A program made the position numbers and the translations under genes. Source: Gammaproteobacteria bacterium (GTDB lineage: Bacteria; Pseudomonadota; Gammaproteobacteria; Steroidobacterales; JABDKV01). Taken from it: a stretch of DNA of 49,868 nucleotides. Position 1 is the stretch's first letter, and each line of letters starts with the position of its first letter. Positions 19,300 through 43,083 of this stretch are shown piece after piece. The stretch lies in assembly GCA_024638445.1 (NCBI GenBank), contig JAHEKH010000010.1:1-49868 (forward strand), written 5' to 3'. Under the pieces are notes generated by a model. The model was not told the origin of the DNA and searched no databases. It saw nothing but the letters and a program-made list of their open reading frames with translations.

Positions 19300-20943
19300 T
19301 TATTCTATTGTTTTTTTACGAATCAGCTCGATAAGCGCTGCAGTAGAGGGGTTGCGCTGCTCCCCGGGCCCTGAGGTCAGTTCCGGGTAAATCTCTCCGG
19401 CCAGTTGCTTGCCGAGCTCGACCCCCCACTGGTCGAACGAGTTGATCCCCCAGGTTACGCCCTGAACGAAAATCTTATGCTCGTAGAGTGCGATCAGCAT
19501 TCCCAGACTGCGTGGCGTCAGCGCTTCCAGCACTACCGTATTGCTGGGCCGGTTTCCGGCAAATTGCCGGTGCCCGACCAGCCGGGCCAGGGAGTCCTCG
19601 TCCGCCCCGGCATCCCGCATCGCTGCTGCTGTGGTTTCCGGGTCACGACCCAGCATCAATGCTTCGGTTTGCGCGAGACAGTTGGCGAGCAGCAGATCAT
19701 GGTGCGAACCGTAGCGCCGCGGGGGATTGACCACCGCGATGAAATCGGCCGGCACCAGGTGGCTGCCCTGGTGCAGCAACTGGAAGTAGGCGTGCTGCCC
19801 GTTCGTTCCGGTGGACCCCCAGACCACGGGCCCCGTTGCATGCCGGGCAGTTGACCCATCCGCCTGCGCCAGCTTGCCGTTACTCTCCATGTCGGCCTGC
19901 TGCAGATAGTCCGGTAAGCGGTCGAGATACTCACAATAAGGCAAGACAGCATGGGTGGGTGCATCGAGGAAATTGATGTACCACACGCCCAGCATTGCCA
20001 GGATGACCGGCAGATTCTCTTCCAGCGGCGCCGTGGCGAAATGCTCGTCCATCGCCCGGGCTCCGGCCAGCAGGTCGCGGAACCCCGTCATTCCGATGCT
20101 CAGCGCGATGGGTAGTCCTATGGCAGACCACAGCGAATAGCGACCGCCCACCCAACTCCAGAAACCGAACATATTGTCCGGGTCGATGCCGAAACCGGAA
20201 ACTGCCTCGGCGTTGGTAGACACAGCGACAAAATGACGCGGCACGTCGGACAGGCTTCGGCCGCTGGCAAGAAACCAGTCCCGCGCCGTATGTGCATTGG
20301 TCATGGTTTCCTGCGTCGTAAAACTTTTCGACGCCACCACGAACAGGGCGGTTTCCGGGTCAATGGCGTCGAGCGTCGAACCGATATCCGCGCCGTCTAC
20401 GTTGGAAACGAAATGAGTACGCATTTCCGGCCTGGCAAACGCGGCAAGCGCCTCTGTCACCATCTGTGGGCCCAGGTGAGAACCGCCAATCCCGATATTG
20501 ACGACATCGGAGATGGGCTTGCCGGTAGCACCGAGCCATTCTCCGGATCGCAGCCGCTCGCTGAATACCGCCATCCGGTCGAGGACTTCGTGCACGCCTG
20601 GCACCACGTCAGCACCATCGACGTGAATCGAAACATCGGGGGGAGCGCGTAATGCGGTGTGCAGGACCGCCCTGCCCTCGGTGAAGTTAATTTTTTCTCC
20701 GGAAAGCATTGCATCGCGAGCGGATTCGACGCCGCGCTCGCGCGCCAGCCCGAAAAGCAGACCGAGACCCTCATCGTCGATGCGGTTCTTGGAGTAATCG
20801 AGGTGCAGCGGCCCCAGCGTTGCCGAGTAACGGCGCGCGCGGCCGGGATCAGCCGCAAACAGGTCGCGCATGTGGCGCGCAGAAAAGCGATCCCGGTAGC
20901 TGCCAAGCGCCCGGTATGCCTCGGCCGCAGTCAGGCTGGTCAT
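19300..20943 (-). CDS. pgi: Glucose-6-phosphate isomerase
   Basis: A 547-residue enzyme interconverting glucose-6-phosphate and fructose-6-phosphate, linking glycogen and Entner-Doudoroff metabolism with gluconeogenesis. Signatures include [38 protein letters not shown] and [18 protein letters not shown]; length is normal. The start is the ATG at 20943, overlapping the glgC stop (ATGA). A longer frame to 21222 is only the shadow of glgC. The gene ends 5 bp from the convergent receiver gene. Confidence 0.97.
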
Positions 20944-22211
20944 CGGGTGTGGTGCAACTGCTGGCCCAGCATTTCCGGCACAACCAGCGTGACCCCATTG
21001 GCGGTCACCCGGAAACGCTGCGCATCGCTTTGCGGATCGATGCCAATATCCGTGCCGTCGGGAACGACAGTGCCCTTGTCGATAATTGCCTTGCGAATCC
21101 GGCAGCCGGCGCCGATCCGCACATTGGGCAGGACCACGGTATCTTCCACTACCGTGTGATTCTCGACGTGCACGTTGGTAAACAGCAGCGAGCGCCTGAT
21201 CTCTGCTCCGGATACGATGCACCCGCCGGACACCATCGAGTCCACCGCCATTCCCCGTTTGTCGGCCAGGTCAAAAACGAACTTGGCCGGGGGCTGCTGG
21301 CTCTGGTAAGTCCAGATTGGCCACTCCTGATCGTACAGGTTCAGTTCCGGCGTCACGCCCAGCAGCTCCATGTTGGCAAGCCAGTAAGAATCGACGGTAC
21401 CGACGTCCCGCCAGTAGGTGTGCGGACCTGCTCCCTTGCGGAACGGATAGGCGGCAACGCTGAATTTGTCGATACACCGCGGAATGATGTCTTTGCCGAA
21501 ATCGTGGTTGGAATCGCCTTCGTCGGCGTCGTGCTCGAGCTGTGAACACATGAAATCGGTATTGAAAATATAGATCCCCATCGATACCAGCGCATGGGTC
21601 TCGCTGCCCGGCATCGGTTGGGGTTCTGCCGGCTTTTCCTCGAAACTCACAACCCGGTTGTCGTCGTCGACCGCCATGACACCGAAGCCCTTGGCATCCT
21701 CGAGCGGCACGTCAATACACGCGACCGTCATATCGGCGCCTGCTTCGGCATGAAACGCCAGCATTTCGCCATAGTCCATCTTGTAGATGTGATCGCCTGC
21801 CAGGATCAGGACATGGCGGGGGTTGTGACGCCTGACGATATCGAGGTTCTGGTAGATCGCGTCGGCAGTGCCAGCATACCAGCCGGTGTGCACGTGTTGC
21901 ATGGCTGGCAGCAGTTCGACGAATTCTCCCAGCTCAGCCCGGAGAAAGCCCCAGCCCTGCTGGATGTGACGAATGAGTGAATAGGCCTTGTACTGACTGA
22001 GTACCCCGATCCGGCGGATATCCGAGTTGATACAGTTCGACAACGGAAAATCGATGATCCGGAACTTGCCGCCAAACGGCATGGACGGCTTGGCCCGCCA
22101 GCGGGTCAGGTCCAGCAATCGGGTACCCCCGCCCCCCGCAAGTATCAGCGCCAACGTGTCTCGAGTCAGCCGGCTGACAAAACGCGGGGTCGGAATAGTC
22201 TCGTCGCTCAT
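20940..22211 (-). CDS. glgC: Glucose-1-phosphate adenylyltransferase (ADP-glucose pyrophosphorylase)
   Basis: This enzyme makes ADP-glucose from ATP and glucose-1-phosphate, the committed step of bacterial glycogen synthesis. From the ATG at 22211 it is 423 residues, normal for GlgC; upstream codons to 22337 look non-native. Motifs seen are [18 protein letters not shown], the catalytic [11 protein letters not shown] aspartate, EEKP and YWRDVGT, then a left-handed beta-helix C-terminus. The N-terminal nucleotide loop reads AGGGGTRL, with glycine where most relatives have a charged or polar residue (AGGRGTRL in E. coli). Coupled to pgi and divergent from the glgA operon across 98 bp. Confidence 0.96.
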
Positions 22212-22309: not shown

Positions 22310-23239
22310 ATGAAACGCATTGTCCTGTTGGGACCACAGAGAAATAAACCGACCGTCTCTCGCGCGCTGGAGGAACACGGCATGGCCGGACGGCTGGCCG
22401 TGGTCACCGCCGGCTGGCAGGAACGCGAGGCTGAGCTGGAATCCCTGGCGGAACACCTCCTCGGCCAGAATATAGTGGACCTGCGGCTCTACGACAGGGC
22501 AGATAGCGTGTTCGGGAAAGACCCGGACCTGCGCGAAGCCTGGCGTGAACGCCAGGAGTGGCTCAAGGAGCTGCAACGACTGTACCGCCGGCGCCTTCGG
22601 CGTTTGCTGGACACGGTGCGGGAACTCGATGAGCTCGATGGAATCGAAGCCCTGGTGACGCGTGAACGGCAGGAAGCCATGGACGCTGTTCGCGACCTGG
22701 ACCGGGAGCACCTGCGCAAGATTCGCGAAATAGCACGTGGCCATTGGCAGAAATGGAAGCCGGTGGAACGGCCGGCGGTCAGCCGGCACAGGGAAGAAAT
22801 TTCCGCGTTACTCGCGCAGTGCGACACGCTGCTGATTGCCGGTGGACATGTCGGTGTCCTGCTGAATCGGCTTCGAATGTTCGAACTGGGCCCCCTCATC
22901 GGTCACCTGGACCTGGTGGCCTGGTCCGCAGGCGCCATGGCGTTGTCGGAGCAGGTCGTGTTGTTCCACGATTTCACGCCCGAGGGAGCAATCGACGAGG
23001 AACTGTTCGACGCAGGGCTTTCCGCCTGCCGCGGCCTGATGGTCTTTCCGGACGGCTCTAACCGGCTGGCACTGGATGACCGGGTCCGGGTCGGGCAGCT
23101 GGCGCGGCGGATGCGGCCCGCCCGTTGCGTGTCTCTCGACGAAGATTCGATCCTCACCTGGAATGGCCGGGCGTGGCACTCAGCGGGTCCGGTCCGGCTG
23201 CTCCGGCAGGACGGCAGCACACAGCCGATGGATTCATGA
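22310..23239 (+). CDS. Peptidase S51 / type 1 glutamine-amidotransferase-like protein of unknown role
   Basis: A 309-residue protein with a Rossmann-like start ([15 protein letters not shown], then LAVVTAGW) and a class-I amidotransferase-type nucleophile elbow [10 protein letters not shown], with Ser206 as the likely nucleophile, as in peptidase S51 (dipeptidase E, cyanophycinase). [15 protein letters not shown] precedes it and LFHDF (His220) follows. Between the halves (about 70-150) lies a highly charged, helical, probably coiled-coil insert rich in Arg, Glu and Leu. The start is the ATG at 22310. It is the first gene of the operon ending in glgA and overlaps the next gene by 4 bp. Substrate unknown; the fold is a family-level inference. 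Confidence 0.6.
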
Positions 23240-24366
23240 AATACGAAGACCTCCTCGCACTGGAATCGCCGCAGCCGGCCGATGTGGACGCCTTCCTGGC
23301 GGCGAACGACGTACCGCTGGTCAGACCGGGCCGGGTGATCTACGTCTATCGGGGCGCGGCAACGGCGGTGCGACTGCGCCAGTGGATTCACGGGCTGCCG
23401 GCTGATCCCGCCCTGGATCGGCTCGGCGATACGGACCTGTGGTATCTCGAGTGCGAACTACCCGACGGTTCCCGGGTCGAGTACAAGTTCGAAATCGAGG
23501 ACGAAAACGGAACCCGGTGGACGACCGATCCTTTGAACCCGGAGCTTGCCGAGGACCCATTCGGGGCCAACTCGGTCTGCCATGGCTATGGCTATCGCCG
23601 GCCATCCTGGTCGCTCCCCGACGCCGGCGGCCGTCCTGGCACGCTGGACCGGCTGACAATCGCCAGCCGGTCGTTCGGGGAAAAGCGCCGGACACAGGTT
23701 TACCTGCCGGCCCGGTTTCGGCGCACGCGACGATATCCGCTGCTCATCGTTCACGACGGCTCGGATTTCCTGCGTTTTGCCGCCTTCAATGCGGTACTCG
23801 ACAACCTGATCCATCGCATGGAAGTTGCGCCGATGATCGTGGCGCTGACCGATCCGGGCAATCGCAACGTCGAGTATGCAGCCGACGACCGGCACGCCAC
23901 CTACATCGCGGACGAGCTGTTTCCGGCCCTTGCCGCCCGGTTCAATCTCGAGGACCACCCCGACGCCCGTGGGCTGATGGGGGCCAGCTTTGGTGCCGTC
24001 GCCTCCCTGCATGCGTCCTGGCGGCGTCCCGAGTTGTTCGGGCGGCTGATGCTGCTGTCGGGGTCCTTTGCCTTTTCGGACATTGGCGGGCACCATCGCG
24101 GACCGGTGTTCGACCCGGTCGTCAGGTTTGTCAACGCCTTCCGGCACGCGCCGGCCAGGCCGGCTCAACGGGTTTACATGAGCTGCGGAATCTACGAGTC
24201 GCTGATCTACGAGAACCGCTCGATCCTGCCTCTGCTGAGAGATACGGGCGCGCGGGTGCGCTACGATGAAGCGCGGGACGGACACAACTGGGAAAACTGG
24301 CGCGACCGCCAGCAAAAAGCTTTGAGCTGGCTTTTTCGCGGACCACTCTGGATGACTTACGAGTAA
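23236..24366 (+). CDS. Putative esterase with E-set-like N-terminal domain
   Basis: A 376-residue protein. Residues 30-105 look like a beta-sandwich E-set domain of the kind seen in glycogen-acting enzymes and enterochelin esterases (VIYVYRG, then DLWYLECELPDGSRVEYKFEIED). Residues 140-370 are a PF00756-type alpha/beta hydrolase: RTQVYLPARF, LLIVHDGSDF, nucleophile Ser251 in LMGASFGAVASL and probable catalytic His350 in DGHNWENWRD. No signal peptide, so cytosolic. The start is the ATG at 23236, overlapping the previous stop. Location before an ATP-grasp gene and glgA suggests action on a sugar- or polymer-linked ester; not proven. Confidence 0.65.
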   Translation: MKYEDLLALESPQPADVDAFLAANDVPLVRPGRVIYVYRGAATAVRLRQWIHGLPADPALDRLGDTDLWYLECELPDGSRVEYKFEIEDENGTRWTTDPLNPELAEDPFGANSVCHGYGYRRPSWSLPDAGGRPGTLDRLTIASRSFGEKRRTQVYLPARFRRTRRYPLLIVHDGSDFLRFAAFNAVLDNLIHRMEVAPMIVALTDPGNRNVEYAADDRHATYIADELFPALAARFNLEDHPDARGLMGASFGAVASLHASWRRPELFGRLMLLSGSFAFSDIGGHHRGPVFDPVVRFVNAFRHAPARPAQRVYMSCGIYESLIYENRSILPLLRDTGARVRYDEARDGHNWENWRDRQQKALSWLFRGPLWMTYE

Positions 24367-24372
24367 CTGACT

Positions 24373-25599
24373 ATGGCTGACAAGACCTGCCGCATCGGGC
24401 TATCACTGGGTGCCGACATCTGCTGGCCGATTTGCTACGAAGAGATCATGCGGCGGCTAGACCTGTCGATACCACGTGGAGCCGACACGTTGCACTTCGA
24501 GGTGGAACGGGTATCAATCGAACCTTATGACCTGGCCCAGTCCTGCCGCTACGATCTCGTCATCGACCGGCTGACCCACTGGTTTCATACCAGCCGTGAA
24601 TGGATCAAGAAGAGCATCATTCTCGACGACCTTTACGTGTTCAATCACCCATGGGCGCTGCAGTCGATGGAAAAGCAAACCACGTATTGCGCCATGATGC
24701 GTCTTGGCATGCCCATGCCCCGCACCTGGATGCTGCCACCAAAGGCCTACCTGCCCAGCGCCGACCTGGAGCCGACCCTGCGTCAATACGCCCGGCTGTT
24801 CGATCTGTCAGAAGTCGGCGACAAGGTCGGCTATCCGTGTTTCATGAAACCCTACGATGGCGGCGGCTGGGTTGGTGTTCGCAAGATCGACAACGCAAAG
24901 GAGCTGCAGGAGGCCTACAATGCCAGCGGCACCGGCGTCATGATGCTGCAGGAGGCGGTCGAACACGACCTGTTTGTACGCTGTATCGGGCTGGGCCCGC
25001 AGCTGCGCCTGGTCAACTACCACCCCTCTGCTCCCCTGCATGACCGCTATGGCCTCGACACCGACTTCCTGGACGAGGATTCAGTCTCGATCCTCGAAGA
25101 CATGACGCTGACCATTAACGCTTTCTTTGGATGGGACTTCAACTCCTGCGAGGCGCTGCGTCGTGGCGATACCTGGGTGCCGATCGATTTTGCCAATGCC
25201 TGTCCGGACTCGCAGGTGACCTCGCTGCACTATCACTTTCCGTGGCTCATCATGGCCAACGTCCGCTGGTCAGTGTTTTGCGCCGCCACCGGCCGAAGCA
25301 AGCCGGTCAATCTGCCGATCCAGCCTTACCTTGCGATTGCTGAGAAAGACCTGCCCTGGCGGGAACGACTCCGCGCATACGGTGAGCAGGCACGACGCGA
25401 TTTCGAGTACGAACGGTTCCAGGAGTTTTGCGACCGCAACCTCTCTCACCTCGAAGAGGTGACCCGCGATTTCTTTGGCAGCGAGGCCGCCCGTAGCGCA
25501 ATACGCAAAAAGGTAGACGCACTGTTCCCGGAGCATGAACGGGAAGAGTTTACCGAGCTGTTCTGGTCCCGCATTCAGCAGTGGCGCAATAACCCATGA
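24373..25599 (+). CDS. ATP-grasp domain protein of unknown substrate
   Basis: A 408-residue cytosolic protein with an ATP-grasp core. Residues 155-170 (PCFMKPYDGGGWVGVRKI) hold the nucleotide-binding lysine (Lys159) and glycine-rich loop, followed by MMLQEAVEHDLFVRC with the hinge and acidic residues. The late VPIDFANACPDS resembles the metal-binding strand of the fold. ATP-grasp enzymes join a carboxylate to an amine or thiol through an acyl-phosphate. The N-terminus (IGLSLGADICWPICYEEIMRRL) is not one I recognise. It starts 6 bp after the esterase gene and its stop overlaps the next ATG. Confidence 0.68.
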   Translation: MADKTCRIGLSLGADICWPICYEEIMRRLDLSIPRGADTLHFEVERVSIEPYDLAQSCRYDLVIDRLTHWFHTSREWIKKSIILDDLYVFNHPWALQSMEKQTTYCAMMRLGMPMPRTWMLPPKAYLPSADLEPTLRQYARLFDLSEVGDKVGYPCFMKPYDGGGWVGVRKIDNAKELQEAYNASGTGVMMLQEAVEHDLFVRCIGLGPQLRLVNYHPSAPLHDRYGLDTDFLDEDSVSILEDMTLTINAFFGWDFNSCEALRRGDTWVPIDFANACPDSQVTSLHYHFPWLIMANVRWSVFCAATGRSKPVNLPIQPYLAIAEKDLPWRERLRAYGEQARRDFEYERFQEFCDRNLSHLEEVTRDFFGSEAARSAIRKKVDALFPEHEREEFTELFWSRIQQWRNNP

Positions 25600-26321
25600 A
25601 GGAAGTCTCCGACTGGTATTCTCCGCGCGTCGAGCAGAATATCCGCCTCGCACGCTGGGGGCACTGGGGTACGCCGGTGCTGATATTTCCAACCGCTGGC
25701 GGAGATGCCGAGGAGATCGAGCGCTTTCTCCTCATCGACGCCCTGGCACCGTTGATATCGGCGGGTCGAATCAAAGTCTATTCGTGCGACAGCATCGCGG
25801 GGCGAGCATGGACCTCACGACAGCACCCACCGGAATACTGTGCCCTGCTGCAGAACCGTTACGACGAATGCGTCTACCGTGAAGTGGTGCCCGCCATCTG
25901 GCAGGACTGTGGCGGGCAAATAGAGATCGTGACCGCAGGGTCTTCAATCGGCGCGTTTAACGCGGTTGCCGCATTGTGCCGGCATCCCGATGTCTTTCGC
26001 CTCGCGTTCGGATTGAGCGGAACCTATGACCTCGAGCCAAAGATGCACGGGCAGGCCAACGACGAGTTCTATTTCGGTTCACCCCTGCATTTCCTGCCCA
26101 ACCTGGGCGAGTCGCTGCAGCTCGAACAGCTGCGCCAGCGTTTTGCCGTGCTGGCTTTTGGCCAGGGCCGCTGGGAAGACCCGGAGGAGTCATGGCGGCT
26201 GGCCGATGTGCTGGGTTCGAAGGGCGTCCCGAACAGGGTCGACCCCTGGGGACCCGAGTTTGACCACGACTGGCCGACCTGGCGGGTAATGATGCCCAAG
26301 TACTTCGACGAGTGGCTTTAA
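25596..26321 (+). CDS. Second alpha/beta hydrolase (esterase-like) of the glgA operon
   Basis: A 241-residue single-domain alpha/beta hydrolase. Visible features: strand TPVLIFPTAGGDAEE, nucleophile elbow TAGSSIGAFNAVAA with Ser117, and a C-terminal FDHDWPTWRVMMPKYF containing the likely catalytic His224. It resembles the esterase-D or putative-esterase group and differs from the upstream esterase, lacking the E-set domain. Its ATG overlaps the ATP-grasp stop and its TAA directly abuts the glgA ATG with no spacer, so synthesis of all three is likely coupled. Substrate unknown. Confidence 0.65.
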   Translation: MKEVSDWYSPRVEQNIRLARWGHWGTPVLIFPTAGGDAEEIERFLLIDALAPLISAGRIKVYSCDSIAGRAWTSRQHPPEYCALLQNRYDECVYREVVPAIWQDCGGQIEIVTAGSSIGAFNAVAALCRHPDVFRLAFGLSGTYDLEPKMHGQANDEFYFGSPLHFLPNLGESLQLEQLRQRFAVLAFGQGRWEDPEESWRLADVLGSKGVPNRVDPWGPEFDHDWPTWRVMMPKYFDEWL

Positions 26322-27773
26322 ATGCGTATCTGCATGATCAGCTCAGAGTTTGCTCCGTTTGCCAAGGCCGGCGGCCTGGGTGATGCGGTCTCGGCGCTCG
26401 CGGCAGAGCTGCACCGGGGGGGGCACGAACTACGGATCTTCGTGCCACGCTACAGCAGCATCGATCCGGAAGCTGCCGGCATGGTGCCGGTCGATTTTCT
26501 CCAGGACATCAGCCTGGCCACCGGCGCATTCGGTCTTCAGTATTCAATGTACACCGCGCCACAGCAGAACGGCCTGTGGGTTCATTTTATTGACTGCCCG
26601 ATCCTGTACGACCGGCCCGGTCTTTACACCAGCGACAGCGATGAACACCTGCGATTCATCATGCTGTCCCGGGGCGCACTCGAGTGCTGTCAGCGCATGG
26701 GGTGGTCGCCAGATATCGTGCAGTGTCATGACTGGCAGAGCGCGCTGGTCCCCCTGTACCTTAAAAGTCTCTACGCGTGGGACAGCCTGTTTGCCAACAC
26801 GCGCACGGTGTTCAGCATTCACAACCTTGGTTACCAGGGTGGCTTCCAGGCTGGCATCCTGCCGGCCACCGGGCTGTCCGCGTACCGGGACCTGCTGCAC
26901 CAGGACGACCTCAACGCCGGCGCAATCAATTTTCTCCGTCACGGAATCATCTACGCCGATGCCCTGACGACCGTCAGCCCGACCTATGCCCGGGAAATCT
27001 GCACGCCGGAATACGGCATGGGTATGGACGACCTGCTGCGCCAGCGCCACGAATCGCTGTTCGGGATTCTCAACGGTGTCGATTACGAGACCTGGAGCCC
27101 CGAGAAAGACCCACTCATCCCGTTCCGTTACAGCCGGTCGAACCTGCGCGGCAAGGCCGCCAACAAGGCGCGGCTCCAGGAGCAGCTGGGACTGCGGCAG
27201 GACCCGGATACGCCCCTGGCGGGAATCGTATCCCGGCTGGTCGCCCAGAAAGGGTTTTCCCTCGCCTACGAAGCGCTGCCACGCCTGCTCGCCGACGGGC
27301 GGCTGCAGCTCGCGGTGCTTGGCAGCGGCGAATCGCGGTACGAGGAGTTCTTTACCTGGCTACAGCACGAGTTTCCGGGCCGGGCCGCGTTCTGGCGGGG
27401 TTTCAACAACCCGCTCGCTCATCTCATCGAGGCCGGCAGCGATATGTTCCTGATGCCTTCGCTATACGAACCCTGTGGTCTCAACCAGATGTACAGCCTG
27501 CGCTATGGAACGGTGCCGGTAGTACGCAAGACGGGCGGACTTGCAGACACGGTCACTCCCCATACCCGGGACGACGGCAACGGGATCGTGTTCGAGCATG
27601 CGGACCAGACAGGCTTCGGCTGGGCAATGGATACCGCGGTGGAACTGTACGGCCAGCGCGAGCGATGGAACCGGCTGATTGCCAACGGGATGCGGCAGGA
27701 TTTTTCCTGGGAGAAACAGGCTGGAGCCTACGTCACTTTATTCAGGCACCTGGCCGAGACTTCGACTGCCTAA
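26322..27773 (+). CDS. glgA: Glycogen synthase (ADP-glucose dependent, GT5)
   Basis: A 483-residue GT-B glycosyltransferase extending alpha-1,4-glucan from ADP-glucose. The N-terminal KAGGLGDAVSALAAEL motif binds ADP-glucose; HDWQSALVPLY, the GIVSRLVAQKGF domain junction and EPCGLNQMYSLRYGTVPVVRKTGGLADTV with the catalytic Glu are all present. Length is normal. It is the last gene of a five-gene operon whose other members are not recognised glycogen genes. Its 3' end overlaps the convergent malQ by 4 bp. Confidence 0.97.
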   Translation: MRICMISSEFAPFAKAGGLGDAVSALAAELHRGGHELRIFVPRYSSIDPEAAGMVPVDFLQDISLATGAFGLQYSMYTAPQQNGLWVHFIDCPILYDRPGLYTSDSDEHLRFIMLSRGALECCQRMGWSPDIVQCHDWQSALVPLYLKSLYAWDSLFANTRTVFSIHNLGYQGGFQAGILPATGLSAYRDLLHQDDLNAGAINFLRHGIIYADALTTVSPTYAREICTPEYGMGMDDLLRQRHESLFGILNGVDYETWSPEKDPLIPFRYSRSNLRGKAANKARLQEQLGLRQDPDTPLAGIVSRLVAQKGFSLAYEALPRLLADGRLQLAVLGSGESRYEEFFTWLQHEFPGRAAFWRGFNNPLAHLIEAGSDMFLMPSLYEPCGLNQMYSLRYGTVPVVRKTGGLADTVTPHTRDDGNGIVFEHADQTGFGWAMDTAVELYGQRERWNRLIANGMRQDFSWEKQAGAYVTLFRHLAETSTA

Positions 27774-29956
27774 CCGGCCCGCCCTCGCTCCGTATTCATG
27801 GCTGAGAAAACCCGTCTTGCCGTTGGGTGATCGAACATGTCGTCGACCGACTCGTTCAGCTTGCGTGACCAGTTGGGATAGGCCGAAGACATCGTTCCCG
27901 GGATGTTGACCGGCGTGGTCATGCCCAGCCAGTCTTCCGGCTGCACCATCACGACGGCTGACTCGCTGCGCGCGAGAAACCGGTGTATCGCCACCGCCAG
28001 GTCCGGCGTCAACGCGGCGGCATCAGCCACGTCGATCCCGTTCGTCCGTAGCGCCTCTATCACGGCAGACCGGTCACGCGAGCGAGCGGCGTTCATTTGC
28101 CGCCCTGTTTCCTCGTCGGGATACAGCCCCAGCTGATCCCGCAGGCGTATGTCCGATCCGCTCCAGAAGCTGTACAGCGGTGGCAGGTCGTGAGTGCTGA
28201 CAGTAGCCAGGGCGCGCCGTGGATAGTCGGCGGGCCGCCTGAAACTCCCGTCCTCGTTCTTTTCAAACATCAGCACCCGGTACGAATAGATCGCTGCAGC
28301 GGGCAGCCTGTCACGAATCTGGTCGGGCACGGTCCCCAGGTCCTCCCCGATCACCAGGCACCCGGCTCTCCGGCTTTCGAGCGCCACCAGGCCAACCAGG
28401 TCATCGAACGGATAGTAGACATACGCGCCGTCAGTGGCTTCGGAGCCTGATGGCACCCACCACAGTCGCAGCAGTCCCATGACGTGGTCGATTCTGAGCG
28501 CCCCGCAGTCTCGCATGTTGTTGCGTATCAGGTGGACAAACTCAGCATAGGACTGTTGCTCGAGCCGACGTGGGTGCAGGGGCGGCAAGCCCCAGTCCTG
28601 CCCGCGCAACGCCAGTGGGTCGGGTGGCGCGCCAACCGTGGCATCGGCGACGTACAGCCGCTGGTTGGCCCAGGTCTCGGAGCCATCGGGTGACACGCCG
28701 ACGGCAAGGTCGCGATACAGTCCCACCGACATCCCGGCATCCAGCGCTGCGGCATGTGCCTCGGCCAGCTGGCTGTCGGCAATCCACTGCAGGTACTGGT
28801 AAAAGTCGATCGCATCCCGGTGACGCAGCGCGAATCGCATCACGGAATCGGAACAGGGGTCGCGATAATCGGCCGGCCAGTCACCCCAGCCAGCCGACCC
28901 ACCGTTCCTGCGGGCAAAATGCGCATGCAGCGCATCGAACAACGCGTGGGTTTCCAGCGGCGGCCCGGCCTCGGTCACAAACTGCTGAAATTCCCGCGCC
29001 CGCGCGGTGGCTCTGCGCAGATGGTTGTCCCGGAAATGTTCGTACAGCAGACGCAGCGCGGAAAGCTTGACGTCGGTCACCGCCGCATAATCGACGCGAT
29101 CGAGTGATCGCAACGACTGCAGTCGCGCAGAAAAAGCCGGATCGCGAACGAGCGCCTGCAGTGCCGGGCAAACCGTTGCTTCGGGCACACCGGGAACGTC
29201 GATGTAGAGAATATTCAGGAATCCACGGCTCGACGGCCGGTATGGACTGAAGGCCGTCGGATGGGACGGGAATGTAGCGTGCATCGGGTTGATACCGATG
29301 ATGTCGGCGCCTGCTGCACCGGCCCTCAGGGCGAGCCTGCGCAGGTCGCCAAAATCCCCGATACCCCAGTTTCGCTCCGAACGCAGCGAATAGAGCTGTA
29401 CCGAGATACCCCACGCACGCTCTCCGCGAATGAAGGCGGCCGGCTCATGACATTGCGCCGGGACAACAATGACCCGGCAGACCCAGCCCTCGCTGCGGCC
29501 GGGCGCGTGGATCACCAGCTCGTGGTAGCCATGACCCAGGTCATCCGGCAAACCGGCCTCGCAACGCACCCACGTCGTGCCTTCGATCTGCCGGCGGGAG
29601 ATCTCATTCAGCTCCGCCGGCCGGACATGACCGGTCAGCAGGCGGCCATCCTCGTACCACAGACGCCAGTGCAGCCGGACATCCAGCTGATGCTCGGAAA
29701 CATTGAGGTAAACCTTCCTGGGCCCATCGTCGCGAACGATGCATACCGGCGGCAGCAGCCGTCGCCGGCTATCGTCTGCGAGCTGACGAACCGCAGCCGC
29801 CTGCCCCTCGGCATCGTGATCGGCATAGCCCATCGCAGCGAGTATCTGCCGGCATGACGACGCCGGCACCGTGCGATGCTCCCCGCGGTAGTCGTAGTAC
29901 CCGGTCTCGACACCCACCGCCCTGGCAAGATTGTCGAGTGCTGGCCTGTCACCCAT
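27770..29956 (-). CDS. malQ: 4-alpha-glucanotransferase (GH77, amylomaltase)
   Basis: A 728-residue enzyme that disproportionates malto-oligosaccharides, recycling the short chains left by glycogen phosphorylase and debranching. GH77 marks: LYSLRSERNWGIGDFGDL, SPYRPSSRGFLN, the nucleophile region LRIDHVMGLLRLWWVP, the acid/base VIGEDLGTVP and VSTHDLPP. The ~150-residue N-terminal beta domain is as in E. coli-type MalQ. The ATG at 29956 has AAGGA 9 bases upstream. Last gene of the zwf-pgl-glgP-glgB-glgX-malQ run, 67 bp after glgX. Confidence 0.95.
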   Translation of the reverse strand: MGDRPALDNLARAVGVETGYYDYRGEHRTVPASSCRQILAAMGYADHDAEGQAAAVRQLADDSRRRLLPPVCIVRDDGPRKVYLNVSEHQLDVRLHWRLWYEDGRLLTGHVRPAELNEISRRQIEGTTWVRCEAGLPDDLGHGYHELVIHAPGRSEGWVCRVIVVPAQCHEPAAFIRGERAWGISVQLYSLRSERNWGIGDFGDLRRLALRAGAAGADIIGINPMHATFPSHPTAFSPYRPSSRGFLNILYIDVPGVPEATVCPALQALVRDPAFSARLQSLRSLDRVDYAAVTDVKLSALRLLYEHFRDNHLRRATARAREFQQFVTEAGPPLETHALFDALHAHFARRNGGSAGWGDWPADYRDPCSDSVMRFALRHRDAIDFYQYLQWIADSQLAEAHAAALDAGMSVGLYRDLAVGVSPDGSETWANQRLYVADATVGAPPDPLALRGQDWGLPPLHPRRLEQQSYAEFVHLIRNNMRDCGALRIDHVMGLLRLWWVPSGSEATDGAYVYYPFDDLVGLVALESRRAGCLVIGEDLGTVPDQIRDRLPAAAIYSYRVLMFEKNEDGSFRRPADYPRRALATVSTHDLPPLYSFWSGSDIRLRDQLGLYPDEETGRQMNAARSRDRSAVIEALRTNGIDVADAAALTPDLAVAIHRFLARSESAVVMVQPEDWLGMTTPVNIPGTMSSAYPNWSRKLNESVDDMFDHPTARRVFSAMNTERGRAG

Positions 29957-30023
29957 GCATGTCCTTCCTGCGTCTGACTGCCATTAAGCTGCGGCGGGGC
30001 TCGTCGGGGAGTTTATCAGAGCA

Positions 30024-32072
30024 TCATGATCGCGGTCGGACCAGCAACGTGACACTCCCGGGCGAACTGCGGAATAACCCTGGCTCGACCAGTTCGCCCT
30101 GCCCGCTGTCAACAGCAACCGTCCACGCACCGGCAAAAACCGGCAGCGAAAAAGAGGTTTCGACGTTGTAACCGTTAATCACGACCAGTGCATCGTCGGA
30201 TGGCAGCCTGTGACGCGGTGCGACCCGGGGTTCGGCCAGGTCTCCACGCAACAGTACGGCGATGGCGCGGTGGTCGGGATCGTGCCATTGCTCCACCTGC
30301 ATGGGTGCGCCATCCGGGCGCAGCCACTGCACGTCGTGCACCGGACCGTGTTCGTGAAGCTGTCCCTGGAGATACTCGCGCCGGCGAAGGACTCCGAGCC
30401 TCGATCGCCAGCCGATTAACGCCGCCACAAACGCCGACAAGTCAGTGTCGGCATTTTCCCAGTCGATCCAGCTAAGCTCATTATCCTGGCAGTAAGCGTT
30501 GTTGTTGCCGCGCTGAGTGCGGCCCAGTTCATCGCCACCCAGCAACATCGGCACACCCTGGGACAGCAGCAGTGTGGCCAGCAGCGCACGCCGGTCGCGA
30601 AGTCGGCGATGCTTGATCTGAGGGGTGTCGGTTGGCCCCTCTACGCCATGATTCCAGCTCTGGTTGTGTGGATTGCCGTCCCGGTTGTCCTCGCCGTTGG
30701 CTTCGTTGTGACGCTCTTCGTAGCTGACCAGGTCCGCAAGCGTAAATCCGTCATGAGCCGTCACGTAGTTGACGCTGGCAACCGGCCCCCTTGACCCGAA
30801 GATATCGCTGGATCCCGACAACCGTGAGGACAAATCCGCCACGCCGGTGCGATCGCCGCGCCAGAAGCTGCGCACGGTTGCGCGGTACTTGTCATTCCAT
30901 TCAGACCAACCGGCGGGAAACTGCCCGAGACGGTACCCGGCGTGACCGGCATCCCACGGCTCGGCAATCAGCTTTACACCTGATAGCACGGGATCCTGGT
31001 GTATGGCCTGGAGAAACGGCGCGTCGGAGCGATACTCGCCATCGACCCTGGCCATGGACGGCGCCAGGTCGAAGCGAAACCCGTCGACACCCATTTCCTC
31101 GACCCAGTAGCGCAGGCTATCCATTACCAGCTGCATCACCGGCGGTCGGGACACAGCCAGCGAATTGCCACAGCCGGAGTTATTGACACACGCCGCCCGG
31201 TCGTGAGTGCGCAGGAGGTAGTAGCCTGCGTTGTCGATACCCCGAAAGCTCAGCGACGGACCGCCGGCGCCGCCCTCGGCGGTATGGTTGTAGACCACGT
31301 CCAGCAAGACCTCGATTCCGGCTTCATGCAACGCACCGACCATGGCGCGAAACTCGGTGACCGGATCCGTAGCGGCATAGCCGGAATGTGGCGCGGAGAA
31401 CGCCACGGTGTTGTAGCCCCAGTAGTTGGTCAGCCCCCGCCCAGCCAGCAGCGGCTCGGTCATGAAACTGGCGCAGGGCAACAGCTCGACCGCAGTGACA
31501 CCCAGTCCCTTGAGGTAGTCGATAACCGGTGGCTGGGCGAGCCCCAGGTAAGTGCCACGAAGTTCCGGGCTGATGCCGGGATGACGGGCAGTAAATCCCT
31601 TGACGTGCAGCTCATAGATCACGCTGTCTTCCAGCGGAATCGCCGGACGTTTGCCGCCGTTCAAAGTCGGCGCGATCACCACGGCCTTGGGAATGACCGC
31701 TGCGCTGTCGCGCGGGTCTGGCTGCCAGGCTCCTTTTTCAACCCGGTAGTCGAGGTGCCGGTCATCTGGCCGCACGACACCGGTGAGCGCACGGGCGTAG
31801 GGATCGATCAGCAGCTTTGCCGGGTTAAAGCGCTGGCCGGTCTCGGGTTCGTAGGGACCGTGAACCCGGTAACCATAGCGGAGTCCGGGGCCGGCGCCGG
31901 TGAGCAGGCCATGCCACACCCCATTGGTGCAGCGGGGCAACTCGTGCCGGATTTCCGTTTCGCCATCGAAGACACACAGATCTACGCGGGTTGCGGAACC
32001 GGACCAGAGCGCAAAATTGACACCGCCTTCACAGACCGTGGCGCCCAGCGGCGCCGGTTTACCCGGCAGCAT
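30024..32072 (-). CDS. glgX: Glycogen debranching enzyme (GH13)
   Basis: A 682-residue isoamylase-type enzyme that hydrolyses alpha-1,6 branches of phosphorylase-limited glycogen. It has an N-terminal CBM48/E-set domain (PLGATVCEGGVNFALWSGSA), GH13 motifs VVYNHTAEG, the nucleophile DGFRFDLA, the acid LIAEPWDAG and VTAHDGFTL. The loop with YEERHNEANGEDNRDG is typical of GlgX. The start is the ATG at 32072 (a GTG at 32078 is also possible), overlapping the end of glgB by 14 bp; the longer open frame to 32219 is glgB shadow. Confidence 0.95.
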   Translation of the reverse strand: MLPGKPAPLGATVCEGGVNFALWSGSATRVDLCVFDGETEIRHELPRCTNGVWHGLLTGAGPGLRYGYRVHGPYEPETGQRFNPAKLLIDPYARALTGVVRPDDRHLDYRVEKGAWQPDPRDSAAVIPKAVVIAPTLNGGKRPAIPLEDSVIYELHVKGFTARHPGISPELRGTYLGLAQPPVIDYLKGLGVTAVELLPCASFMTEPLLAGRGLTNYWGYNTVAFSAPHSGYAATDPVTEFRAMVGALHEAGIEVLLDVVYNHTAEGGAGGPSLSFRGIDNAGYYLLRTHDRAACVNNSGCGNSLAVSRPPVMQLVMDSLRYWVEEMGVDGFRFDLAPSMARVDGEYRSDAPFLQAIHQDPVLSGVKLIAEPWDAGHAGYRLGQFPAGWSEWNDKYRATVRSFWRGDRTGVADLSSRLSGSSDIFGSRGPVASVNYVTAHDGFTLADLVSYEERHNEANGEDNRDGNPHNQSWNHGVEGPTDTPQIKHRRLRDRRALLATLLLSQGVPMLLGGDELGRTQRGNNNAYCQDNELSWIDWENADTDLSAFVAALIGWRSRLGVLRRREYLQGQLHEHGPVHDVQWLRPDGAPMQVEQWHDPDHRAIAVLLRGDLAEPRVAPRHRLPSDDALVVINGYNVETSFSLPVFAGAWTVAVDSGQGELVEPGLFRSSPGSVTLLVRPRS

Positions 32073-34275
32073 CGTCACCGGCCTGCCAGGCCACAAATCC
32101 CAAAGGCGGCAGTCGAAAGTCGGCGGATTGCTGCCTGCCGTGGCTCGCAATCTCCTCGGTCTGCAGGCTGCCGCCATCGCTGAAGCCTGAACCGCCGTAA
32201 GCCTTCGAATCGCTGTCAAAGAGCCGTCTCCAGGAACCCGCGGACGGTAGTCCCAACCGGTACGACTCCCGGGGGACGGGCGTGAAATTGAACACGCACA
32301 GGATCGGCGGACGACCGCCCTCGACGTCGTGCCTCAAAAAGGCGTAGATGCTGTTGCTGGCATCCTGGCACTCGACCCACTCAAAACCCTCCGGCGAGGT
32401 ATCGCTGGCGAAGAACTGCGGGCTCTCTAAATAAAACCGGTTGAGGTCCCGGCACAGGTCCTGGACCTGCCGATGCTCGTCATGCTGCAGCAACTCCCAC
32501 GGCAGCGACTCGTATTCACGCCATTCATGACGCTGACCAAACTCCTGGCCCATGAACAGCAGTTTTTTGCCCGGGTGAGTCAGCATGAATGCCAGGTACA
32601 GGCGCAGGTTGGCGCGTTTCTGCCAATCGTCACCCGGCATCTTGGTCAACAGCGACGCCTTGCCGTGTACTACCTCATCATGCGAAATAGGCAAAATAAA
32701 GTTTTCCGACCAGGCGTAGATCATCGCGAAGGTCAGCAGAGAGCTGTGGTGCTTGCGGTGTATCGGGTCCATCGAGATAAACCGCAGTGTGTCGTTCATC
32801 CACCCCATGTTCCACTTGAAGTTGAACCCCAGCCCGCCCGCGTCCGGTGGCAGCGTGACGCCGGGAAATGCGGTCGATTCTTCCGCAATCGACATGACGC
32901 CGGGAAAATAGTTGAAAATAACTTTGTTGTACTGACGGATGAACTCGATGGCTTCGAGATTCTCGCGTCCGCCATGGCGGTTTGGCACCCATTCGCCGGG
33001 CCCGCGGCTGTAGTCCAGGTACAGCATCGAGGCTACGGCGTCGACTCTCAATCCGTCGATGTGGTAGTAGTCCAGCCAGAACAATGCGTTGGACACCAGG
33101 AAATTACGGACTTCGTTGCGTCCGTAATTGAAAATCTTGGTACCCCATTCCGTATGCTCACCGCGCCGTGGATCGGCATGCTCGTACAGGTAGGTTCCGT
33201 CAAAACGTGCGAGAGCAAAATCATCTCGCGGAAAGTGTGCCGGCACCCAGTCCATGATGACGCCGATTCCGGCTGCATGACACCGATCAATAAAACGCAT
33301 CAGGTCTTGTGGCTTGCCGAACCGTGAGTTGGCGGCGTAATAGCCCGTCACCTGGTAGCCCCAGGAACGATCCAGCGGATGCTCTGCCAGCCCCATCACT
33401 TCGATATGGGTGTAATTGAGATCGCTCACGTAGGGAATCAGTTCGTCGCCAAGCCGGTCCCAATCGAGAAACTCTCCGTCGTCCTGTTTCCACGAACCGG
33501 GATGCACCTCATAAATGTTGACCGGCGATTTCAGCGGATCGCTTTGTGCCCGTTGCTCCATCCAGTCGCTGTCCGTCCACTCGAAACCATCGAGGGATGC
33601 CACGATTGACGCGGTATCGGGTCTCAGCTGCATGCGAAAAGCATAGGGATCGGACTTGAGCCTGATTTGTCCGTCGAAACCGAGAATCTCGAACTTGTAG
33701 AGGTCGCCGTCTCCCACGTTCGGCACAAAAAGCTCCCAGACACCGCTGTGGTCCCTGGCGTGCATCAGGTGACGCCTGCCGTCCCAGTGGTTGAAGCTGC
33801 CGACCACGCTGACTCGACGGGCCGTTGGCGCCCAGACCGCAAACAGGACCCCGCTAACCCCCTCCCGCTCCGCGACATGGGCCCCCAGCTTGCGGTAGAT
33901 GTGATGATGATTACCGGCGCCGAACAGGTAAAGATCCAGTTCGCCCAGCTCCGGGGAAAAATAGTAGGGGTCGTAGCGGGTCTGCCGGTTGCCGTCCCGG
34001 TAACGGAAATTGAGCCGGTAAGGCTCCAGCGTCTTGCGGGGCGCAATATTCAGCTCGAACAGGCCGGCATCGTGCAGCCGGGTCATCGGGCCCGACTCCT
34101 CTCCATTAGCCCAGGTGAGGGTTGCCGTTTCGGCGTCCGGCTCGTAGGCACGTACGACCCAGCGGCGGTCGCCGCCTGTCCCGGTTTCGTGGAACCCCAG
34201 CACTGAGCGCGGACTGGAGTGTTTTCCCGTTACGATCCCGTCGATATCTCCGCGACTCAACCTGTTGGTGTTCAT
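32059..34275 (-). CDS. glgB: 1,4-alpha-glucan branching enzyme (GH13)
   Basis: A 738-residue enzyme creating alpha-1,6 branches in glycogen. It has two N-terminal beta-sandwich domains (VLGFHETG and VSGVLFAVWAPTARRVSVVGSFNHWDG), then the GH13 barrel with EVHPGSW, DWVPAHFP, nucleophile DGLRVDAVASM, acid SIAEESTAFP and PISHDEVVHGKAS, and the usual FNFTPVPR C-terminus. Full length as in E. coli GlgB. It begins 1 bp after the glgP stop and overlaps glgX, so phosphorylase, branching and debranching enzymes are made from one transcript. Confidence 0.97.
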   Translation of the reverse strand: MNTNRLSRGDIDGIVTGKHSSPRSVLGFHETGTGGDRRWVVRAYEPDAETATLTWANGEESGPMTRLHDAGLFELNIAPRKTLEPYRLNFRYRDGNRQTRYDPYYFSPELGELDLYLFGAGNHHHIYRKLGAHVAEREGVSGVLFAVWAPTARRVSVVGSFNHWDGRRHLMHARDHSGVWELFVPNVGDGDLYKFEILGFDGQIRLKSDPYAFRMQLRPDTASIVASLDGFEWTDSDWMEQRAQSDPLKSPVNIYEVHPGSWKQDDGEFLDWDRLGDELIPYVSDLNYTHIEVMGLAEHPLDRSWGYQVTGYYAANSRFGKPQDLMRFIDRCHAAGIGVIMDWVPAHFPRDDFALARFDGTYLYEHADPRRGEHTEWGTKIFNYGRNEVRNFLVSNALFWLDYYHIDGLRVDAVASMLYLDYSRGPGEWVPNRHGGRENLEAIEFIRQYNKVIFNYFPGVMSIAEESTAFPGVTLPPDAGGLGFNFKWNMGWMNDTLRFISMDPIHRKHHSSLLTFAMIYAWSENFILPISHDEVVHGKASLLTKMPGDDWQKRANLRLYLAFMLTHPGKKLLFMGQEFGQRHEWREYESLPWELLQHDEHRQVQDLCRDLNRFYLESPQFFASDTSPEGFEWVECQDASNSIYAFLRHDVEGGRPPILCVFNFTPVPRESYRLGLPSAGSWRRLFDSDSKAYGGSGFSDGGSLQTEEIASHGRQQSADFRLPPLGFVAWQAGDDAAG

Positions 34276-34276
34276 G

Positions 34277-36771: not shown

Positions 36772-37470
36772 TCAGTCGAATGAGCAGTAAACGTTTACGG
36801 GCACCTGGTCCTGGTGAAGAATTGCCCTGACAGGCATCGCCGAGACATCGTCACCGGCGAGCGCTTCCTGGTAGACCTTCCATTTATCTGCACCACGGAG
36901 CAAAAGGACGATTTGCCTGCTGTTGAGCAAAGCGCGACGGCTGAGCGTAAGCCTGACTGCGCTCTCCGGCCTCACCACTACGCAGCCGGCGTCAGCCTCC
37001 AGCGCCTCGGCAAGTCCCGGTGCCCCGGGAAACAGCGAGGCTGTGTGACCGTCGGTGCCCATACCCAGCAGCACCAGGTCAAAAGGATTGTCGAGAGAAG
37101 CGATCGCTGCACTCGCCCGCTCCGCGTCTGCCTCGGGTTCGTCGCCGGTACGGGCCATCGACAGCAGCCGGGATGGCGAGTCCGGCCCTAACAATTCACG
37201 GAGGAACATCCCCTCGTTGCTGGCGTTGTCCGATACCGGCACCCAACGCTCGTCCGATGGGCAGAAAGCCAGCTTTTCCCAGGGTAGCGGCAGCTCGCGC
37301 AGGACGTTATACAGACCGGCAGGGGTGCTGCCACCCGACAGGACGATCTGTGCCCGGTCCCTTAAAGCAACACATTCTTCGACGGTATCCCAGATCAGCG
37401 CGGCAAGCGCGATCGTGAGATCTGCCGAATGCGTGTAACGGCATTCGCTGTTTACCTGCAAAGTGTTCAT
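36772..37470 (-). CDS. pgl: 6-phosphogluconolactonase
   Basis: A 232-residue enzyme hydrolysing 6-phosphogluconolactone to 6-phosphogluconate. Family motifs: VLSGGSTPAGLYNVL, DERWVPVSDNASNEGM and LLGMGTDGHTASLFPG. The start is the ATG at 37470, overlapping the zwf stop (ATGA); the frame is open to 37491 without a better start. Being coupled to zwf and facing edd, it is the middle step from glucose-6-phosphate to the Entner-Doudoroff intermediates. Confidence 0.96.
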   Translation of the reverse strand: MNTLQVNSECRYTHSADLTIALAALIWDTVEECVALRDRAQIVLSGGSTPAGLYNVLRELPLPWEKLAFCPSDERWVPVSDNASNEGMFLRELLGPDSPSRLLSMARTGDEPEADAERASAAIASLDNPFDLVLLGMGTDGHTASLFPGAPGLAEALEADAGCVVVRPESAVRLTLSRRALLNSRQIVLLLRGADKWKVYQEALAGDDVSAMPVRAILHQDQVPVNVYCSFD

Positions 37471-38933: not shown

Positions 38934-38960
38934 CCGCTAACCCCCTCAATGAAAACGCGC

Positions 38961-39016
38961 AGTATACCGGTATGGGCAAAGCGCAACAGCCTCAACCCGG
39001 CCATAGCAGGTATGAT
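38961..39016. promoter_or_regulatory. Divergent zwf/edd control region with candidate -10 elements
   Basis: Between zwf and edd, TATACT on the minus strand (38966-38961) and TATGAT on the plus strand (39011-39016) are near-consensus -10 hexamers facing the two genes. Good -35 partners are not evident, so promoters here may need an activator. No palindromic TGTA-ATTACA-like HexR site was found by eye. Confidence 0.25.
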
Positions 39017-39048
39017 TAGCGTTCTTTCGGGGACTGGAGTGACAAAGC

Positions 39049-40863: not shown

Positions 40864-40900
40864 TTTTTTCATTGGTTTATAAGACTTTTAGCGAAATAAT

Positions 40901-41592: not shown

Positions 41593-43083
41593 ATGGGACT
41601 TGCGATAGAGAAAGACCGTTTCGAGGAGCACGACTACAAACGGTTCGAGGAACGGCTGCGCGCCAACCTCCAGGCACTCGAAGCGCTGTTATTGCGTGAC
41701 AGTTTCGGGATTGGCAAGCCGTCGCTGGGTGCCGAGCTCGAACTTGACCTCATCGACGACCGGTGCCGGCCACTGGCGATCAACCGCCAGGTGCTGGCCG
41801 ATCACGTCGACCCACGGCTGCAGCTGGAGCTGACGCGGTTCAATCTCGAGTACAACCTGTCGCCGGTATCGGCCCGGGGAACGCCCTTCACCACCATTGG
41901 CAAAGAGATGGAGCTGGCGCTTGAGTCACTGCAGGCGCCCGTCGCGGCGCACGGCGGCAGAGTCCTGCCTATCGGCATCCTGCCAACCCTGCGGCCGGAC
42001 GACCTGCAGCGGTCGGCGTTGACGGACCTGGCCCGGTACCGGGCACTCTCTTACGGTCTGCGGCGAATCCGCCGGTCCCCGTTCCATGTCAGGATCGAAG
42101 GCGACGAATCGCTGGAGATCGAGAGCGATGACGTAACCCTGGAGGGTGCCAACACCTCGTTCCAGGTCCACCTGAGGATCAATCCGTCCGATTTCGCCGA
42201 TTATTTCAATGCCGCCCAGCTGGCAACCGCTCTCGCGGTATCAGTTGCCGGTAACTCGCCGGTATTCCTGGAACGCTGCCTCTGGGAAGAAACCCGGGTA
42301 GCGCTATTCAAACAGGCGGTCGACGCCCGCAGCGCCCGCACGGGTGGCGAGTGGCGCAGAGCCGCGAGAGTGCCATTTGGTCACGGCTGGGTTCGTGAGG
42401 GGGCCTTCGACCTGCTGGCTGAATCGGTCCGGCTTTTCCCACCCGTCCTTCCGGTTTGCGACGACGAAGATCCACTGGAAGTCGTCAACAATGGCGGCAT
42501 CCCCCGCCTGGCTGAGCTTCGCATGCAGCAGGGGACGGTCTGGCAGTGGAATCGCGCTGTGTACGATCCCGGTGCCGGCGGGCACCTGCGCATCGAGTTC
42601 CGCGCTTTGCCCTCCGGCCCCACGCCCGTCGACATGATGGCCAATGCCGCATTTATCGTCGGCCTGACCGCCGGGCTGCAGAAGAACATCAACCAGCTGC
42701 TACCCGCATTCCCATTTCGCTATGCGGAGTACAATTTCTATCGCGCCTCGCAGAGCGGTCTGTCTGCCAATCTGCTGTGGCCCACGCTCGAAGGACTCTC
42801 GCCAACCGAACACAGTGCCCGCGACCTGGTGCTCGATCACCTGTCGCTGGCCCGCGACGGTTTGCTCGGCCTGGGTGTCGAAGCGGGCGAAATCGACAAG
42901 CTCCTGGGCGTAATCCAAGACCGTGCCGAGAGCGGCCAGACGGCATCGCGATGGCAGCGGCACACGCTGGCCCAACTCGAGAAAAAAGCCGCGAGGACCG
43001 ACGCCCTGGCGACTATGGTTTCTGCCTATCACGACCGCGCCGTGAGCGGCAGGCCGGTCAGTGAGTGGATCGTCCCCTCATGA
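41593..43083 (+). CDS. GCS2-family glutamate-cysteine-ligase-like protein (carboxylate-amine ligase)
   Basis: A 496-residue protein of the glutamine-synthetase-fold GCS2 group. Typical blocks are PSLGAELELDLID near residue 45, LTRFNLEYNLSPV, VTLEGANTSFQVHLRINPSDFADYFNAAQ around 190 and HLRIEFRALPSGPTPVDMMANAAF around 340. Relatives ligate glutamate to an amine or are uncharacterised; the true substrate here is unknown and glutathione synthesis is not assured, since no gshB partner is near. ATG at 41593 has GGAGAGG 6 bases upstream. It lies 74 bp after eda on the same strand and overlaps the convergent next gene by 6 bp. Confidence 0.68.
   Translation: MGLAIEKDRFEEHDYKRFEERLRANLQALEALLLRDSFGIGKPSLGAELELDLIDDRCRPLAINRQVLADHVDPRLQLELTRFNLEYNLSPVSARGTPFTTIGKEMELALESLQAPVAAHGGRVLPIGILPTLRPDDLQRSALTDLARYRALSYGLRRIRRSPFHVRIEGDESLEIESDDVTLEGANTSFQVHLRINPSDFADYFNAAQLATALAVSVAGNSPVFLERCLWEETRVALFKQAVDARSARTGGEWRRAARVPFGHGWVREGAFDLLAESVRLFPPVLPVCDDEDPLEVVNNGGIPRLAELRMQQGTVWQWNRAVYDPGAGGHLRIEFRALPSGPTPVDMMANAAFIVGLTAGLQKNINQLLPAFPFRYAEYNFYRASQSGLSANLLWPTLEGLSPTEHSARDLVLDHLSLARDGLLGLGVEAGEIDKLLGVIQDRAESGQTASRWQRHTLAQLEKKAARTDALATMVSAYHDRAVSGRPVSEWIVPS

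Follow-up and report, generated by a model that had tools for sequence, protein, structure and literature searches.

A cassette of ATP-grasp ligase, esterase and S51-fold genes that recurs with one clade of bacterial glycogen synthase

Why are genes for an ATP-grasp ligase, two esterases and an S51-fold protein packed against the glycogen synthase gene glgA? This arrangement is found in contig JAHEKH010000010.1 of a gammaproteobacterial genome (GCA_024638445.1), which is contig 15 of an assembly of 3.04 Mb that comprises 208 contigs and is approximately 82% complete. The whole stretch that was analyzed, 49,868 nucleotides in length, is referred to here as the window. Its forward strand carries, in this order, S51L (22310..23239), EstA (23236..24366), ATPg (24373..25599), EstB (25596..26321) and glgA (26322..27773), and the first four genes are collectively termed the cassette. 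The positions of the open reading frames (ORFs) confirm the tight five-gene packing, divergent from glgC-pgi, that an initial annotation of this DNA had described. S51L and EstA overlap by 4 bp, EstA and ATPg are 6 bp apart, ATPg and EstB overlap by 4 bp, and EstB abuts glgA with a gap of 0 bp. A 98-bp intergenic region separates S51L, the first gene, from the divergent glgC gene. The association of the cassette with glgA is well supported by the comparison of genomes described below.

Linkage of the cassette to glgA

An ATPg search of 84,980 species genomes identifies at least 573 relatives in other genomes. The best 80 of these relatives, which were used for the present analysis, come from Gammaproteobacteria, Alphaproteobacteria, Acidobacteriota, Myxococcota, Planctomycetota, Gemmatimonadota and Eisenbacteria, and most carriers are metagenome assemblies with short contigs. 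At the 87 ATPg loci surveyed, a few of which overlap between collections, ATPg is accompanied by EstA (84 loci), EstB (69) and S51L (60), and the gene order S51L-EstA-ATPg-EstB is found repeatedly across phyla. Although many contigs end early, glgA is located within 10 kb of ATPg in 41 of the 87 loci. When the comparison is confined to the 32 full S51L-type loci, which extend at least 7 kb on either side of the cassette, glgA is present at 20 loci, compared with 6 for glgC, 4 each for glgB and glgP, 2 for glgX and 1 for malQ. Relative to ATPg, a same-strand glgA follows in 23 cases and precedes in 7, and the two genes lie on opposite strands in 9; this variety of orientations indicates that the association has outlasted rearrangement.

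A similar relationship is observed within the taxonomic order of the window: of 40 genomes, 11 carry ATPg, and in 8 of these carriers glgA is no more than 5 kb away from it. All 11 carriers have glgA, compared with 15 of the 29 non-carriers (p = 0.003), and the ligase paralogs described below are found in 8 of the 11 carriers and in none of the 29 non-carriers (p = 2e-6), both p values being uncorrected for kinship. Thus, the neighborhood survey reveals repeated linkage to glgA across phyla, the opposite of one outcome that the initial annotation had named as a refutation. The functional tie to glgA that the initial annotation had suggested is supported by this linkage, by a dedicated GlgA clade and by the independent arrival of the cassette at glgA. 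The recurrence and the GlgA clade rule out chance neighbors. A plasmid- or virus-borne cassette was also considered and rejected, given that ATPg has no matches in PLSDB or IMG/VR. One genome of the survey carries two cassette copies on separate contigs, with glgC near each copy, and contains two glgA genes.

Is the linked synthase itself distinctive? The window GlgA matches TIGR02095 over its full length (E-value of 7e-158; 526 bits versus a cut-off of 328) and is encoded by the sole glgA detected in this genome. In a tree of 58 GlgA sequences, which derives from a quick search with a small outgroup sample, all 40 linked GlgAs fall into one group with a Shimodaira–Hasegawa-like approximate likelihood ratio test (SH-aLRT) support of 100 and a stem of 0.55. 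The group also takes in six unlinked GlgAs, all from the order of the window, and the other 12 unlinked sequences are positioned outside. The linked clade includes sequences from Gammaproteobacteria, Acidobacteriota, Myxococcota, Planctomycetota and Gemmatimonadota. A four-residue deletion near residue 106 of the window GlgA is common to all 40 linked sequences, and the six unlinked clade members have an equally short loop. The clade-specific residues are C123, Q124 and Q194.

The history of the window locus can be traced by comparison with two congeners, G002 and G003. In their glg loci, pgi-glgC, glgA and malQ-glgX-glgB-glgP are arranged as in the window, and the interval between glgC and glgA is empty; their cassettes are located elsewhere in the genome. 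The GlgA proteins of the window, G002, G003 and another genome, G004, constitute one clade with a support of 100. The ATPg tree, also from a quick search, places the G002 and G003 copies among Woeseiaceae (support of 99) and groups the window and G004 copies with another family (support of 89). Monophyly of the four ATPg copies is rejected by the approximately unbiased (AU) test with a p value of 0.007, for a group that was picked after the tree had been seen, and the sequence identities of EstA and S51L are consistent with the same split. Shared GlgA ancestry and differing ATPg ancestry therefore point to separate acquisitions, one of which landed tightly at the resident glgA. In the simplest reading of these sequences, the cassette joined the resident glgC-glgA pair of the window genome independently of the congeners' cassettes.

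Cassette proteins and additional ligases

What activities do the cassette proteins suggest? Structure prediction, which the initial annotation had put forward as a check, yields an ATP-grasp fold for ATPg and an S51-type fold for S51L, in both cases through remote fold matches. ATPg is the best-conserved cassette member, with 61–74% identity across phyla. Its AlphaFold2 (AF2) model, with a predicted local distance difference test (pLDDT) score of 89, combines the ATP-grasp fold with an all-helical C-terminal domain, and Foldseek ranks ArgX (E-value of 1e-10), LysX and RimK best and D-Ala-D-Ala ligases next. ATPg scores below the D-Ala-D-Ala ligase family cut-offs (23.7 bits versus 24 for Pfam Dala_Dala_lig_C and 23.7 versus 449 for NCBIfam). 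Its presumed metal site contains the invariant residues D272 and N275 in a non-canonical D-x-x-N spacing, and E260 is also invariant. The S51L model (pLDDT of 93) matches cyanophycinase and peptidase E in Foldseek and contains a long two-helix insert at residues ~72–149. The window copy of S51L reaches 12.7 bits against the S51 profile, under the cut-off of 23.9, and its orthologs in related genomes exceed this cut-off with 27–35 bits. The nucleophile Ser206, located in an SAGA elbow, is kept in 56 of 57 relatives.

EstA is a predicted Fes-like serine esterase with an N-terminal E-set domain. In profile searches, it matches PF00756 (E-value of 1e-23) and, weakly, Enterochelin_N, and it aligns with the enterochelin esterase structure (PDB 2b20; E-value of 2.5e-24) across both the E-set and catalytic domains. 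EstA residues Ser251, Glu321 and His350 are invariant in all 43 sequences and align with the 2b20 positions that we take to be the Fes catalytic triad. EstB is a short putative alpha/beta hydrolase that matches PF00756 (E-value of 5e-5), and its Ser117 and His224 residues are invariant in 35 of 35 sequences.

The initial annotation had treated these proteins as a set of four genes. This set is too small, and the view of four isolated genes is rejected because further ligases recur in the neighborhoods. Three ATP-grasp paralogs of ~405 residues, F0, F1 and F7, are 29–37% identical to one another and occur at 58, 36 and 36 of the 87 ATPg loci, respectively. The ATP-grasp regions of all three can be aligned with L-amino acid ligases of solved structure, with the catalytic Glu and Arg residues and the active-site pattern kept, and we assign the paralogs by family as L-amino-acid-ligase-type enzymes. 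The possibility that F1 is an antisense shadow ORF on the opposite strand was rejected, and F1 is a genuine ATP-grasp gene. Lineage-specific additions comprise a YbdK-type GCS2 ligase, a second GCS2-like family, a BesA/PGM1-type ligase and a PurD-like ATP-grasp protein. At two loci, L044 and L050, the ligases are interspersed in a whole glg operon with the order glgC-glgP-glgX-F7-S51L-EstA-ATPg-EstB-(F1 reversed)-glgA-F0-glgB-PGM1, although L044 contains just the terminal part of the glgC gene.

The additional ligases do not always reside at the cassette. In the source genome, F0 (61% identity) is encoded on a different contig (C57:7139-8353). The window itself contains a gene of the second GCS2 family (41593..43083, forward strand), a putative carboxylate-amine ligase that has no Pfam match and lies beside an Entner-Doudoroff gene set. 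Its homologs are found directly 3' of EstB in Myxococcota and Eisenbacteria, and genes of this type are present in 9 of the 40 genomes of the order, 6 of which are ATPg carriers. We infer that this gene belongs to the cassette system. Six loci are split, such that ATPg has no nearby glgA and glgA is located elsewhere, together with at least two of the three paralogs F0, F1 and F7; five are from genomes of, or grouping with, Acidobacteriota and one is from SZAS-85. In the checked genomes of Alphaproteobacteria, Granulosicoccus, Eisenbacteria and some planctomycetes, glgA is found without F0, F1 or F7.

Possible functions of the cassette

How could these enzymes contribute to glycogen metabolism? 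The ligase families suggest that the product is amide-linked and peptide-like, and the esterases point to the formation or cleavage of an ester. ATPg, the L-amino-acid-ligase paralogs and the GCS2-like ligases, encoded adjacent to ATPg or elsewhere in the genome, would build a small compound of this class. EstA and EstB would transfer or remove the compound as an ester, and S51L would trim or recognize it. The alpha-glucan that the linked GlgA synthesizes would carry the compound or be primed by it. The bias towards glgA and towards a single GlgA clade suggests that the action occurs at the synthase step, on the primer, the growing chain or the acceptor. We tentatively favor a modular pathway that is co-inherited with a specific GlgA and in which a ligase-made amide compound acts on or attaches to the glucan or its primer. 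A more specific version is possible but doubtful, namely a peptidyl- or aminoacyl-glycogen pathway that operates in many bacteria with a peptide-like covalent primer or decoration, a dedicated GlgA and an esterase pair for removal.

Several observations weigh against an action on the glucan. A variant from Alphaproteobacteria and Granulosicoccus, which consists of EstA, ATPg, EstB, F0 and often a YbdK-like GCS2 ligase, is unlinked to glgA, and the glgA genes in the checked genomes with this variant are of other types. The core can therefore work without the ligase-linked GlgA. In G002, G003 and a further genome, the cassette is located away from glgA and lacks the ligase paralogs. Three genomes of one family have the clade GlgA with its deletion, yet no ATPg; these genomes may have lost the system or may keep an earlier state. 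At the protein level, the aromatic positions through which the E-set domain of EstA would bind glucan are incompletely conserved, with the W95 position occupied by Trp in 24 and Leu in 18 of 43 sequences. The canonical His position of S51L (residue 248), where the profile alignment is weak, is His in 27 and Asp in 22 of 57 relatives, including D248 of the window copy, and isopeptidase or peptidase activity is thus not to be assumed. The enzyme classes of the initial annotation (ATP-grasp, esterases and S51 fold) broadly stand, with a reservation about an isopeptidase role of S51L.

The glgA-free variant makes it nearly as likely that the ligases generate a separate nitrogen-containing storage compound, osmolyte or secondary metabolite, such as a dipeptide or gamma-glutamyl compound, with no chemical link to the glucan. 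Such a metabolite would be co-expressed with glycogen because both answer carbon excess or stress. This explanation agrees with the ligase classes at the loci, which typically produce small peptides, and with the congeners' cassettes away from glgA. However, co-regulation alone would predict neither a linkage that prefers glgA over glgC, glgB, glgP, glgX and malQ nor the presence of one GlgA clade over five phyla. The deletion and clade-specific residues could instead reflect an altered synthase that glucosylates the ligase product to a glucosyl-peptide or similar conjugate, besides making glycogen. We consider this unlikely in view of the sole GlgA found in the window genome and its complete glycogen cluster, since this one GlgA would also have to account for any normal glycogen in the cell.

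The co-occurrence of bond-forming and hydrolytic enzymes in an operon shared with glgA is also compatible with a small-molecule regulator of GlgA or GlgC that the cassette both makes and destroys. Several ligases per locus would be a costly means to this end and family profile searches detect no regulatory domain, which renders a regulator improbable. We assign a similarly slight chance to hitch-hiking, in which a horizontally mobile operon resides beside glgA through history alone. The patchy distribution of ATPg (2 of 369 genomes of the class and 6 of 199 Acidobacteriota) and the conflict between the ATPg and GlgA trees speak for it, but the cassette came to a resident glgA through an independent event, and glgA retains other ligases at the split loci.

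If the more specific peptidyl- or aminoacyl-glycogen pathway exists, it would be the functional equivalent, in bacteria, of priming of the glycogenin type or would define a modified storage polysaccharide of a new class. According to a 2024 review on prokaryotic alpha-glucan enzymes (PMC11046441), no homolog of glycogenin is known from bacteria that store glycogen, Agrobacterium GlgA is capable of self-priming, and bacterial glycogen is described as a plain glucose polymer. The tie between peptide-type ligases and one GlgA subfamily in at least five phyla opens priming and covalent modification to direct tests and provides a functional lead for several unnamed enzyme families.

Genomic context and comparison with known systems

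The cassette and glgA are flanked by other genes of glycogen metabolism, all on the reverse strand. The divergent glgC (20940..22211), which occupies the equivalent position, directly beside glgA, in the congeners with an empty interval, is followed by pgi (19300..20943), and malQ, glgX, glgB and glgP (27770–36766) converge on glgA. The glgX (30024–32219) and glgB (32059–34275) ORFs overlap as called by ~160 bp, and the real glgX start probably lies more downstream. Directly behind glgP, zwf, pgl, edd and eda (36772–41518) constitute the Entner-Doudoroff entry, and glycogen and glucose-6-phosphate use are thus clustered. A 626-residue protein encoded at 43078–44958 on the reverse strand partly matches Sdr-type adhesin repeats. 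Across the window, Rfam gives no match to an RNA element, and a scan for sigma-70 promoters and terminators detects no promoters and only a background level of terminators.

How does this system compare with those already described? The window shares glgA, glgC, malQ, glgX, glgB, glgP and pgi with classical glgC-glgA operons. In excerpts of the 2024 review, amy and pgm are named as extra glg-operon genes, and ATP-grasp, S51-like and Fes-like genes, which the window contains, are unmentioned (PMC11046441). Our search of mostly open-access literature, which is weak evidence of absence, found no paper that connects the cassette families to glgA, or an ATP-grasp gene to an operon for glycogen synthase. 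The gene system suggests that peptide-like ligation and glycogen are chemically linked in a way not yet described, although a known type of metabolite could still underlie the system.

For most of their length, F0, F1 and F7 can be aligned with L-amino acid ligases (RizA-type 4wd3, BL00235 3vot and BacD; E-values down to 6e-36), with a matching active-site pattern. Known L-amino acid ligases yield free dipeptides or bacilysin, and to our knowledge, none is linked with glycogen synthase. ATPg resembles ArgX, LysX, RimK and D-Ala-D-Ala ligases in its fold (target-normalized template modeling score of about 0.5–0.7) and in the ATP-site lysine region, but differs from them in its ~10–16% identity in fold alignments, its helical C-terminal domain and its D-x-x-N spacing. 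EstA aligns with Fes and IroD over residues 57–369 with the Ser, Glu and His positions kept; in contrast to these esterases, it has no siderophore genes within its operon and neighbors glgA instead. S51L shares its fold and SAGA nucleophile elbow with cyanophycinase and peptidase E, but differs from them in the long helical insert and the unconserved His position. Separately, on another contig (C127) of the source genome, a true cyanophycinase-type S51 gene adjoins a 958-residue ATP-grasp ORF that resembles cyanophycin synthetase, and this gene pair may indicate cyanophycin turnover. A further parallel in gene content comes from the amidoligase neighborhoods that Iyer and colleagues reportedly described in 2009, in which ATP-grasp and COOH-NH2 ligases are said to occur with peptidases. 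Like those neighborhoods, the present system assembles multiple ligases and hydrolases, and it differs from them in its stable tie to one GlgA clade.

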